From Sedimenticola sp. (GTDB lineage: Bacteria; Pseudomonadota; Gammaproteobacteria; Chromatiales; Chromatiaceae), in NCBI GenBank assembly GCA_027030425.1, contig JALVEW010000084.1, positions 1 to 61,817 on the forward strand: DNA of 61,817 nucleotides, written 5' to 3'. The position numbers and the translations under genes are program-made. The notes beneath the pieces are model-generated. The model saw only the letters and a program-made list of their open reading frames with translations, did not search any database and was not told the origin of the DNA. Shown here one piece after another: positions 28,839 to 60,273 of the stretch (position 1 is its first letter; each line of letters opens with the position of its first letter).

Positions 28839-29216
28839 TCAGGTTTCCCTGGAAAAGATTGCGCTCTCTTTCTTGCTCAGATTCTGGGAGAGAGAGACCA
28901 CCTCCTCCGGGGGTATCTGGCGGATAACTTCTTTCGTTTCCGCATCCAGGACCTTGATAACAGTGCGGCCACTGTTCTCATCGATGCTGAACTCGAGTTC
29001 CCGCCGGATGGTCTGAACATACTGGTTCAGGTTGTCAACGGCTGATGAAATCGCGTCTCGCGAAGGGTTCTTGTCCTGTTCTGACGGCAAGGTTTTACCG
29101 GTATCCGGCAACTTCTGACCATTTTCCGGCTCGGGAACGCCCCCAACACCCGGAATGCCTGCAGGCAAGGCGGCTCTCACCAGCGGGATCACATTGGATT
29201 CGATTTCATTGGCCAT
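28839..29216 (-). CDS. flaG: FlaG family protein
   Basis: Protein of 125 residues. A Pro/Gly/Asn-rich N-terminal half precedes the FlaG domain (about 55-120): NLNQYVQTIRRELEFSIDENSGRTVIKVLDAETKEVIRQIPPEEVVSLSQNL. FlaG influences filament length in polar flagellates and usually lies between flagellin and fliD, as here. The ATG at 29216 follows GAGGA; an upstream ATG at 29237 has no ribosome site. Confidence 0.93.
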   Translation of the reverse strand: MANEIESNVIPLVRAALPAGIPGVGGVPEPENGQKLPDTGKTLPSEQDKNPSRDAISSAVDNLNQYVQTIRRELEFSIDENSGRTVIKVLDAETKEVIRQIPPEEVVSLSQNLSKKESAIFSRET

Positions 29217-54410: not shown

Positions 54411-55141
54411 GGCCGGGCGATGAAGGAAACGAAGTTGAAGCACTGGAACCACAGGTCCACGCGGCCGAAGCCGGCTTCCCGCAGGCGCTGCCGGTGGGCG
54501 GCAATGGTTTCCGGCACCAGCACTTTCTCCAGGGCGGCGCGTTTCTGGCTGATCTCCAGATCGGAATACCCATTGGCGCGCTTGAAGGCGTGGTGCAGCT
54601 CCACCAGCACCGCGTCTTCCGCCGCGTCCGCCCCGGCAATCTTTTCCGACAGGATGAGCACGCCATCCTCGCGCATGCCTTCACGAATCCCGCGCAGCAG
54701 GGGCAGACGCTCTTCCAGGGGCAGAAACTGCAGGGTGAAGTTCAGCACCACCACGGAAGCATCCTGAATCTCCACATCGCGGATATCCGCGCACAGGCTT
54801 TCCACATTGTCCAGGCCGTGCTTGTCGAACTGCCGCCGCGCCCGCGCCAGCATGGCTTCGGCGTTGTCCACCGCCACCAGGCGGCAGCCCCGCCCGCCAA
54901 CGGCCTTGCCCATGGAAACCGTGGCCGCCCCCAGGGAACAGCCCAGGTCGTACAAGCGGCTTCCGGGGCTGGCATGCTGCTCCGCCAGCAGTCCGATCAT
55001 GCCGATGATGCTGGCATAGCCGGGCACGGAACGGGAGATCATGTCGGAAAAGACGGCGGCCACCCGCTCGTCGAAAACAAAACTGTCGATGCTTTCCCTG
55101 GGATGGGCGTAGAGGCTGTCCCTGCCCTCAGATCTGCTCAT
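54407..55141 (-). CDS. cmoA: Carboxy-SAM synthase CmoA
   Basis: Protein of 244 residues (E. coli 247). FVFDERVAAVFSDMISRSVPGY at the N-terminus and the SAM-binding YDLGCSLGAATVSM; later VVLNFTLQFLPLEERLPLL and EKIAGADAAEDAVLVELHHAFKRANGYSDLEISQKRAALE, all CmoA signatures. It makes carboxy-S-adenosylmethionine from SAM and prephenate for CmoB. The start is ATG 55141, overlapping the SET gene by 14 bases; an ATG at 55150 is possible. Translation is probably coupled. Confidence 0.97.
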   Translation of the reverse strand: MSRSEGRDSLYAHPRESIDSFVFDERVAAVFSDMISRSVPGYASIIGMIGLLAEQHASPGSRLYDLGCSLGAATVSMGKAVGGRGCRLVAVDNAEAMLARARRQFDKHGLDNVESLCADIRDVEIQDASVVVLNFTLQFLPLEERLPLLRGIREGMREDGVLILSEKIAGADAAEDAVLVELHHAFKRANGYSDLEISQKRAALEKVLVPETIAAHRQRLREAGFGRVDLWFQCFNFVSFIARP

Positions 55142-55490
55142 GGAATTCATCACCGTAGTAGAAGGTGATTTCTTCATCCTTGGCAATGTTCCGGGTGGCA
55201 TACAGGTCCAGGCCATCGAATTCCGCGTTGAAATCAGCGGAATGATTCAGGTAGCGCAGCAGGTTGCGTCCGCTGCAGCCAACCCATTCCTCCCCGCCGT
55301 CGCCGGATTCACAGACCCAGAGCACGTACATGCCATTGCGGCTGGCCCTGGGACCATGATAGGTGCCGATGTAGCTTCCCGCGGGAATCTCCCGGGCGGC
55401 AAACAGGCCCGTGCCGTGAATCGATGATGCCGCCGAATACACCCATTCACGCAGCTCTCGGTTGCTGGTACGCAGGCTCTCCGGGCGCAT
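55128..55490 (-). CDS. Stand-alone bacterial SET-domain protein
   Basis: Protein of 120 residues. SET features in order: HGTGLFAAREIPAGSYIGTYHG (25-46), RYLNHSADFNAEF (79-91) and ARNI-like TRNIAKDEEITFYYGDEF (99-116). NHS and the final YGDEF correspond to the pseudoknot and cofactor-side motifs, so protein lysine methyltransfer is possible. There is no pre-SET or post-SET part. ATG 55490 shares its A with the stop of the upstream gene (TGATG). It sits between an ArnD-like gene and cmoA in a fully overlapping operon. Substrate unknown. Confidence 0.85.
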   Translation of the reverse strand: MRPESLRTSNRELREWVYSAASSIHGTGLFAAREIPAGSYIGTYHGPRASRNGMYVLWVCESGDGGEEWVGCSGRNLLRYLNHSADFNAEFDGLDLYATRNIAKDEEITFYYGDEFHEQI

Positions 55491-56326
55491 CAATCCACCT
55501 TGAGGCTCTGCATGGCCAGATGCTCGCGGCGGCCCGGCACCTCGCCCCAGCCCACCTGGTGCACCGGCAGCTGCTCCAGATCCAGCTCCCGGCGAATATC
55601 TCCCAGGGTGCGCAGACTGCCTTCCTGACCTTTCCACATGATGAGCATCTTTTCCATGAATTCCAGATGAGCGATGCCTTCCTGGTCGGCGCTGGCGGAA
55701 TAGACATGGCCGAAAGGCAGCACCCGCCGGCTTTCGGCATAAAGAAACTCATGGGCCTTTTCCAGGCCGATATCCGACTGCAGCATCAGTTCCGACAGGG
55801 TGGGAAGGGTGGTGGGAATCTGCGGACAGCGGGACACTACATTGTGCAGGGAAGGAAAGAAGGGATACTTGCCCCGCAGATCGCTGGCATAACGGAACTC
55901 CAGTCGCTCCTCCATGCCCAGTAGATGAGCATTCACCTGCCAGCAGGGCGCGGCGAAGCGATTGGGCGCATGCCCGAGCAACTCCTCGAAGTTCTCCATG
56001 CCCAGGGCCAACTGATGACTGGTCCAATCCGCGTCCGCAAAGGCCGCCTGTTTGCACCAGGCTCCCGCATCATTACCCTGCAGGCCAATCTCGTGACCGG
56101 CATCAGCCACCGCCAGCATGGCTTCCTTCAGGCTCATCTCCGCCTTCCCGGACTTGGTCAGCAGGGAAGCCGCCTTGCCCAACAGCCCTTTGCCCCGGCC
56201 GCTGAAATCCACGGCAAAGAAGAAACTGGCCGTGACCTGGTATTCCTCAAACAGCTTTAGCAGGCGCGGAACGCCCACGGTAGCGGCATTGAGGGTTGAT
56301 ACATCGATCTTCAGCGCGATTCTCAT
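55490..56326 (-). CDS. ArnD-like polysaccharide deacetylase fold, metal site lost
   Basis: Protein of 278 residues. It aligns by eye with ArnD: IDVSTLNAATVGVPRLLKLFEEYQVTASFFFAV, then DLRGKYPFFP and PQIPTTLPTLSEL. D8 of the first motif is kept, but the metal-binding stretch, GLHAWDHHAW in E. coli ArnD, reads GLQGNDAGAW (81-90): Q83 and A87 replace both histidines of the HxxxH pair. Hydrolysis as in ArnD is therefore unlikely unless other residues take over. No membrane segment or signal peptide. The start ATG overlaps the 65-residue gene (ATGA). Confidence 0.85.
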   Translation of the reverse strand: MRIALKIDVSTLNAATVGVPRLLKLFEEYQVTASFFFAVDFSGRGKGLLGKAASLLTKSGKAEMSLKEAMLAVADAGHEIGLQGNDAGAWCKQAAFADADWTSHQLALGMENFEELLGHAPNRFAAPCWQVNAHLLGMEERLEFRYASDLRGKYPFFPSLHNVVSRCPQIPTTLPTLSELMLQSDIGLEKAHEFLYAESRRVLPFGHVYSASADQEGIAHLEFMEKMLIMWKGQEGSLRTLGDIRRELDLEQLPVHQVGWGEVPGRREHLAMQSLKVD

Positions 56327-56520
56327 AGACTGCAACTACCCTCGTACACGGCCATGATGCTCTTGATCTCCGCCAGCACCTGCATGCGCTGCGCGTGATC
56401 GAGATCCTCCAGCTCCGGCAGGATGCCGCCATTCTCCATGAAGGCAATATCGGCCCACAGAGCCTTGCAACCCTTCAGGCAAAGCGTCTCGACGGCTTGA
56501 TCCACGGGATTTTGTTTCAT
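56323..56520 (-). CDS. 65-residue protein, first gene of the cmoAB operon
   Basis: Protein of 65 residues: MKQNPVDQAVETLCLKGCKALWADIAFMENGGILPELEDL and then RMQVLAEIKSIMAVYEGSC near the end. It has three helices and Cys residues at 14, 18 and 63, which could pair or bind metal. CAGG lies near the ATG. Coding is supported by the ATGA overlap with the next gene and by sensible composition. I do not recognise a named family; its operon position suggests a helper of the ArnD-like protein. Confidence 0.7.
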   Translation of the reverse strand: MKQNPVDQAVETLCLKGCKALWADIAFMENGGILPELEDLDHAQRMQVLAEIKSIMAVYEGSCSL

Positions 56521-56710
56521 GAGCCTGAGTAAGTGATATCTGCAAGCTGCGGATTATGCCACAGGACAATCGGGGATTTCCCTGATTTCCCTTATTCATG
56601 AAAATACAGCCACTGACTCCCTTCCCCGCGCGTGGGAGGCTGTCTCAACAGGTGACAGCCGCTACGATGCTGGGATGCATCGCCATAGCTGAAACCCGAA
56701 AAACAAAAAA

Positions 56711-56760
56711 CGTTCTTGATTTGTTCTTTTTTCACGTTATAATAGAACCAAAATAGAACG
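56711..56760. promoter_or_regulatory. Palindromic operator: two opposed GTTC-N7-GTTC motifs
   Basis: The left copy begins CGTTCTTGATTTGTTC (56711); the right copy, read on the minus strand from 56760, begins CGTTCTATTTTGGTTC. The 20-base arms agree at 15 positions, with 10 bases between them and centres 30 bases apart. They flank and overlap the promoter of the 59-residue gene. GTTC-N7-GTTC is the LexA box type of alphaproteobacteria; which protein reads it here is unknown. Confidence 0.6.
56716..56743 (+). promoter_or_regulatory. Sigma-70 promoter of the 59-residue membrane protein
   Basis: TTGATT, 16 bases, TATAAT. Both boxes are near consensus; the -35 lies inside the left operator arm and the -10 touches the right one. 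Expected start near 56750, a leader of about 27 bases. Confidence 0.75.
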
Positions 56761-56776
56761 ACACAGGAGAGCCACG

Positions 56777-56956
56777 ATGAACTACAGCAGCTATCTCATG
56801 CGGGATCAGGCATATGGCCTCATATCCAGCCTGGACCAGGTTGCCCTGGACCGCAAACAAAGGGCAAGAATGCGCAAACTGCGTTCCCTGGCCGAAATTG
56901 CCGCCTTTGTGGCCGCCGTCATCAGTTACCTCATTGCCCTGTCCCTGATGGCCTGA
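56777..56956 (+). CDS. 59-residue single-span membrane protein
   Basis: Protein of 59 residues starting MNYSSYLMRDQAYGLISSLD, with a basic middle (DRKQRARMRKLRS) and one membrane segment near 38-58 (LAEIAAFVAAVISYLIALSL), probably with the N-terminus inside. AGGAGA stands six to seven bases before the ATG at 56777. A strong promoter with a tight palindromic operator and the adjacent uvrB suggest an inducible, perhaps DNA-damage-related, small membrane protein. No family recognised and no function claimed. Confidence 0.75.
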   Translation: MNYSSYLMRDQAYGLISSLDQVALDRKQRARMRKLRSLAEIAAFVAAVISYLIALSLMA

Positions 56957-57009
56957 TGCCCGCATAGCCGCCAGAACGCCGGAGAGGAACCAGCCTCCTG
57001 GTTCCGGCC

Positions 57010-59025
<2,016 letters not shown>

Positions 59026-59094
59026 GGGGATTCTGGTGGCGGCTGTGTTGGGATATGATAACAACTATAAGAACCAAGGAGCGCAGAACCACAG

Positions 59095-60273
59095 ATGAAC
59101 TCTAAACTCTCCACGCGTGTGCAGGCCGTCAAGCCTTCCCCCACCCTGGCCATCACCGCCCGGGCCGCCGCCCTGCGCGCGGCCGGCGAGGATGTCATCG
59201 GGCTGGGCGCCGGCGAGCCGGATTTCGACACCCCGAATCACATCAAGGAAGCCGCCAAGAAGGCCATCGACGAGGGCAAGACCCGCTACACCGCTGTGGA
59301 TGGCACCGCCAGCCTGAAACAGGCGGTCATCGACAAGTTCAGGCGAGACAACGGTTTCGAGTACGAACCGGAACAGATCCTGGTATCCAGCGGCGGCAAG
59401 CAGAGCTTCTTCAACCTGTGTCAGGCGCTGCTGGACCCGGGCGATGAGGTCATCATCCCCGCCCCCTACTGGGTGTCTTATCCCGACATGGTGGTGCTGG
59501 CCGGCGGTGCCCCGGTGCTGGTGCATGCCGACGCTTCCCAGCAGTTCAAGATCACACCCGCCCAGCTGGAAGGCGCCATCACCGACAATACCCGGCTGTT
59601 CGTCATCAACAGCCCGTCCAATCCCACGGGCATGGCCTACAGCAAGGAAGAACTGGCCGCCTTGGGCGAGGTGCTGCGCGAGCATCCGCGCGTCATCATT
59701 GCCACGGACGACATGTATGAACATATCCTGTGGCCGGGCAAGGACTTCATGAACATTCTCAACGCCTGCCCGGACCTGTACGAGCGCACCCTGGTGCTCA
59801 ACGGCGTATCCAAGGCCTATTCCATGACCGGCTGGCGTATCGGCTATGCCGGCGGGCCAGCGGATATCATCAAGGCCATGAAGAAAATCCAGTCCCAGAG
59901 CACGTCCAACCCCTGCTCCATTTCCCAGTATGCGGCGGAAGCCGCCCTCAACGGTCCCCAGGACTGTATCGCGGAAATGCTGACGGCTTTCAAGGAACGC
60001 CATGACTATGTGGTGGACCGCCTGAATGCCATCGAAGGCGTGGAAGCCCTGCCCACGGACGGCACCTTCTATGTATTCCCCCGGGTGGAAGGTTTCATCG
60101 AGCGCCTGGACGGCATCGGCGACGACCTGGAGCTGGCGGAATATCTCATCGAAAAAGCCGGCGTGGCCCTGGTCCCCGGCACTGCCTTCGGCTCCCCCGG
60201 GCATATCCGCCTTTCCATCGCCACCAGCATGGAGAACCTGGAAAAGGCCCTGGACCGCATCGGCGCCATCTGA
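59095..60273 (+). CDS. Class I aspartate aminotransferase (subgroup Ib)
   Basis: PLP enzyme of 392 residues. GAGEPDFDTP near the start, NSPSNPTG (172-179), and the Schiff-base lysine K240 in SKAYSMTGWRIGY. The N-terminal form LSTRVQAVKPSPTLAITARAAALRAAGEDVIGLGAGEPDF is the Ib subgroup found in thermophiles and many proteobacteria, often with dual aspartate/prephenate activity. AAGGAG stands 14 bases before the ATG, a long spacing. Divergent from uvrB. Confidence 0.94.
   Translation: MNSKLSTRVQAVKPSPTLAITARAAALRAAGEDVIGLGAGEPDFDTPNHIKEAAKKAIDEGKTRYTAVDGTASLKQAVIDKFRRDNGFEYEPEQILVSSGGKQSFFNLCQALLDPGDEVIIPAPYWVSYPDMVVLAGGAPVLVHADASQQFKITPAQLEGAITDNTRLFVINSPSNPTGMAYSKEELAALGEVLREHPRVIIATDDMYEHILWPGKDFMNILNACPDLYERTLVLNGVSKAYSMTGWRIGYAGGPADIIKAMKKIQSQSTSNPCSISQYAAEAALNGPQDCIAEMLTAFKERHDYVVDRLNAIEGVEALPTDGTFYVFPRVEGFIERLDGIGDDLELAEYLIEKAGVALVPGTAFGSPGHIRLSIATSMENLEKALDRIGAI

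Follow-up and report, generated by a model that had tools for sequence, protein, structure and literature searches.

A conserved small membrane protein gene of Sedimenticola under opposed GTTC-N7-GTTC boxes: a candidate SOS-induced division inhibitor

Sulfur-oxidising bacteria possess a previously undescribed and unnamed family of small membrane proteins, one member of which is encoded at positions 56777–56956 (+ strand) of the window, the 61,817-nucleotide stretch of Sedimenticola sp. DNA that we analysed. Its homologues, dN/dS values, residue conservation and helix model characterize this 59-aa single-span membrane protein as a representative of a new SOS-linked family. The explanation that we favour overall, with somewhat more confidence than doubt, is that the gene is controlled by LexA and that its product delays cell division. 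Bacteria differ in the small, mutually unrelated proteins that arrest their division after DNA damage, and to our knowledge no candidate for it has been known in the sulfur-oxidising Gammaproteobacteria of this group. The present family, with more than 50 members and a clear regulator, is testable. It also points to LexA control through GTTC-N7-GTTC in Gammaproteobacteria, for which CTGT-N8-ACAG is the textbook box, and both the small gene and the regulon may be overlooked where annotation relies on conventional ORF cut-offs and on the E. coli box.

The original prediction placed a TTGATT-N16-TATAAT promoter within a near-palindrome carrying two opposed GTTC-N7-GTTC boxes, and this architecture was confirmed. 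The first LexA-type box (GTTCTTGATTTGTTC) occupies positions 56712–56726 on the + strand and the second (GAACCAAAATAGAAC) positions 56745–56759 on the − strand; the former is conserved 5′ of homologues and the latter is kept there as the partner of an inverted pair. Their centres, at 56719 and 56752, are 33 bp apart rather than the predicted 30 bp, and 34 of the 48 positions of the operator are identical in its reverse complement. The sigma-70 promoter (56716–56743, + strand) matches the consensus at 10 of 12 positions and is the sole promoter-like match in 56500–57100. Its −35 hexamer lies inside the first box and the second box lies just 3′ of the −10 hexamer; the two strict boxes flank and overlap the −35/−10 region. 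A ribosome binding site, AGGAG (56765–56769, + strand), is located 7 bp 5′ of the ATG, and a similar purine-rich site is found in relatives.

The 59-aa ORF has diverged in the manner of a protein-coding sequence. Among ten genes of the genus, which show no indels relative to one another, dN/dS values (Nei–Gojobori) were mostly 0.03–0.2, and judged by this substitution pattern the ORF is a real gene. A homologous small ORF had been expected in relatives, and the search recovered one in more than 50 genomes. Another 13 genus members have homologues, and a protein profile search of 210 host-family genomes detected the family in about 57 of them, distributed over some 20 genera. The named homologues in the GTDB collection belong to Sedimenticola MAGs and one Thiolapillus brandeum MAG. 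Outside the host family, homologues occur in five genomes with strict boxes upstream (G375, G117, G240, G167 and G341) and in G279, where the upstream box has one mismatch. No family in Pfam or NCBIfam covers the 59-aa protein. A phage origin was rejected, as phage genomes gave no tblastn match and PHROGs no significant match. The profile also matched weakly to proteins of about 575 aa, but these matches are response-regulator receiver domains (GAHDYIMKDNLKRLVPAIERE) with no boxes upstream and were regarded as chance likenesses. Likewise, the similarity of the N-terminal YxMRDQ..LVP segment to the end of a response-regulator receiver domain (DYIMKDNLKRLVPAIE) is probably due to chance.

The operator is conserved beside the gene, in agreement with what had been predicted for relatives that keep the ORF. 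We defined the strict double operator as GTTC-N7-GTTC-N4..24-GAAC-N7-GAAC and used the reversed pattern as a control. Of the 15 genus genomes, 14 contain exactly one strict operator, each time 5′ of the 59-aa ORF, while the reversed pattern gave 0 matches in the genus genomes, and all 14 genus genomes that have the gene carry a box 5′ of it. A further 39 homologues, from the family but outside the genus, owe their detection solely to the protein profile and played no part in choosing the motif. In 38 of them, one or more strict boxes lie within 250 bp upstream of the start, and 28 carry the strict inverted pair, compared with 0 of 1089 background windows with a strict box, the related genomes being non-independent samples for these counts. 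Shared ancestry of unconstrained DNA alone is argued against by the spacing of the boxes, which varies from 31 to 41 bp among homologues. The operator observation is far beyond chance. A chance palindrome in front of a spurious ORF, a reading that could draw on the shortness of the ORF and the AT-rich promoter region, is already refuted by the low dN/dS values and by the boxes at the profile-found homologues. In G008, the spacing of the boxes 5′ of the small gene is 22 bp versus about 33 bp, one helical turn shorter and similar to that of the near-consensus boxes 5′ of lexA in the genus.

GTTC-N7-GTTC is known as the alphaproteobacterial LexA box, while CTGT-N8-ACAG is that of most Beta- and Gammaproteobacteria (PMC3323433, PMC8565304), and a CTGT-N8-ACAG box at the host lexA or recA would have spoken against the prediction. 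The genus lexA, recA and imuA were found to have GTTC-type boxes instead. In the genus, imuA is preceded by a strict box and recA by a conserved AAAC-N7-GAAC, with strict boxes at recA in G015–G017; the promoter of lexA itself has a strict box in G008 and G013 and a degenerate, near-consensus one in the host. The host carries boxes at lexA, recA and imuA, those at recA and lexA being near-consensus. Strict opposed pairs stand 5′ of lexA in G020, G021, G024 and G041. Because GTTC-type boxes precede lexA, imuA and recA, control of the small gene by LexA, and hence its membership of the SOS response, is close to certain as far as sequence can tell. The original prediction held that another repressor could equally read the operator; such a repressor, with the gene lying outside the SOS response, is now very improbable given the boxes 5′ of imuA and recA and the opposed boxes that several relatives and many other families have at the promoter of lexA itself.

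Chromatiaceae have been stated to have no LexA homologue (PMC3108266); the LexA of our host is intact, with an S24 peptidase domain, an Ala-Gly cleavage site and the Ser and Lys residues present. LexA proteins of this lineage mostly score 46–57 bits on the LexA DNA-binding model, a weak match versus 75–100 for E. coli-like LexA, but retain these peptidase, cleavage-site and Ser/Lys features. The opposed pair was detected in 28 of 369 genomes sampled across the class, and most of the places that we read stand directly 5′ of a lexA of this type; in G263, it lies 5′ of a Y-family polymerase gene. Our limited literature search retrieved no open-access report of GTTC-N7-GTTC in this lineage. A widespread LexA lineage, with opposed GTTC-N7-GTTC pairs directly 5′ of lexA in many gammaproteobacterial families, may be under-recognised.

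The protein consists of an N-terminal Y-x-M-R-D-Q motif, a basic linker of variable length and a C-terminal membrane helix. M1, Y6, M8 and Y51 are invariant in 40 of 40 aligned members, and R9, D10 and Q11 are retained in about 80% of these. The membrane helix spans approximately residues 39–58 and follows a 38-residue basic part; it contains no charged residues past E40. A hydropathy maximum of 2.4 over 19 residues and the prediction of one long helix agree with a small single-span protein, and AlphaFold2 gave a single helix for residues 9–58 with confidence limited to the membrane part. According to the positive-inside rule, the N-terminus would be cytosolic. Conservation within the membrane helix is concentrated on one face, at a shuffle fraction of 0.0024. 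The aligned sequences suggest that this face, which includes the invariant Y51, may contact another protein.

Inhibition of late division by small single-span SOS proteins is known from several bacteria (PMC4211646, PMC13396833). We found no true SulA among the 210 genomes of the host family: matches to the SulA model fell in longer ORFs, those scanned were of the ImuA type and were rejected as true SulA, and the 59-aa protein itself has no Pfam match. Because the matches are longer ORFs, ImuA-type where scanned, the role of SulA appears vacant. This apparent vacancy, the tightness of the double operator and the conserved face of the helix jointly make division inhibition the most likely function, and we give a SidA- or YneA-like SOS-induced division inhibitor about as much credence as doubt.

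The division inhibitor would act as follows. In undamaged cells, two LexA dimers bound to the opposed GTTC-N7-GTTC boxes would silence the strong promoter. Upon DNA damage, active RecA would provoke self-cleavage of LexA, and the 45–60-residue protein would be made; its basic N-terminal part would stay in the cytosol while the C-terminal helix enters the inner membrane. There, the protein would most likely use the conserved face of its helix and its YxMRDQ motif to bind a membrane protein of the divisome (e.g., FtsW, FtsI or FtsN), and division would be delayed during repair, the role played by SulA in E. coli. Given that only about 57 of the 210 genomes have the small gene and that several relatives with the same LexA type (G020, G021 and G022) lack it, it is not essential to this SOS response. 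A broader and more tentative proposal is that the LexA of this lineage reads opposed GTTC-N7-GTTC pairs and that a C-terminally anchored family under its control replaces SulA as the damage checkpoint of division through YxMRDQ, by a mechanism distinct from those of SidA, YneA and SulA.

The same one-sided helix face and invariant cytosolic motif, which suggest a specific protein partner, could serve an SOS-induced small regulator of a membrane protein outside division, such as a transporter, a protease or a respiratory or envelope complex. Small membrane modulators of other membrane proteins are common, and we regard this as a real but lesser possibility; against it, the gene has no conserved operon partner, and its downstream gene differs within the genus. 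A toxin like TisB or DinQ, i.e., a hydrophobic peptide made in the SOS response to depolarise the inner membrane, slow growth and favour survival, would share the LexA control, the small size and the single membrane span, and a tight double operator would suit a gene whose leaky expression is harmful. However, known toxins of this type are shorter and as a rule have a small RNA as partner, whereas here an invariant motif lies in a basic cytosolic part of 38 residues and the membrane helix is uncharged after E40. In addition, no promoter-like site on the minus strand in 56500–57100 and no Rfam match were found, a weak test of an antisense RNA. We therefore consider the toxin unlikely, and TisB, the analogue originally proposed, is a weaker one than SidA, SosA or YneA.

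The functional class in which the putative division inhibitor would fall is that of the SidA-like SOS division inhibitors. SidA of Caulobacter crescentus is a 29-aa SOS-induced division inhibitor that binds FtsW; like the protein here, whose LexA control is read from the operator, it is small, crosses the inner membrane once and is controlled by LexA through a box of the GTTC-N7-GTTC type. Unlike SidA, the present protein is twice as long, has a conserved cytosolic motif and two opposed boxes, and belongs to a gammaproteobacterial host. YneA of B. subtilis, SosA of S. aureus and ChiZ of M. tuberculosis are likewise SOS-linked single-span membrane proteins and block a late division step. All three extend outside the cell, YneA and ChiZ with a LysM domain, whereas our protein would, by its predicted topology, carry the helix at its C-terminus, keep its bulk in the cytosol and have no periplasmic domain. 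TisB and DinQ of E. coli resemble it as SOS-controlled small membrane peptides but are shorter, toxin-like and regulated by antisense RNA, of which the gene here shows no sign. With SulA of E. coli, it would share SOS-induced division arrest as a proposed role alone: SulA is soluble, binds FtsZ and has no sequence relation to it. At the level of the regulon, the box sequence and spacing and the targets recA, lexA and imuA are those of the alphaproteobacterial LexA regulon, while the host is a gammaproteobacterium of the Thiolapillus/Sedimenticola group and opposed pairs occur at the small gene and at lexA of several relatives.

The convergent neighbour uvrB (57010–59064, − strand; Pfam UvrB) had been taken as a hint of damage induction, and this tie to uvrB was not borne out. 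In other members of the genus, the gene 3′ of the small ORF is a PpiD-like or DnaE gene, and neighbours other than uvrB are present in G005, G006, G008, G009 and G011–G014 (all named by eye). A strict GTTC-N7-GTTC box does lie between aspC and uvrB (59086–59100), but in the host only; it was looked for upstream of uvrB in G001, G004 and G007 and was missing. With its adjacency varying in the genus and its box not conserved, uvrB was rejected as a meaningful partner, and its position is incidental. Another box, at 29067, is inside an ORF adjoining flagellar genes (named by eye) and was taken as a chance occurrence. The conserved side of the small gene is 55128–56520 (− strand), which encodes a 65-aa protein, a polysaccharide-deacetylase-like protein and a SET-domain protein. 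The divergent gene for the 65-aa protein (56323–56520, − strand; from the ORF list), conserved, of no known family and outside the SOS unit, also adjoins the small gene in G004, G007, G008 and G030. This block, accompanied by a Tex-like gene, separates the small gene from lexA in G017 and G024.
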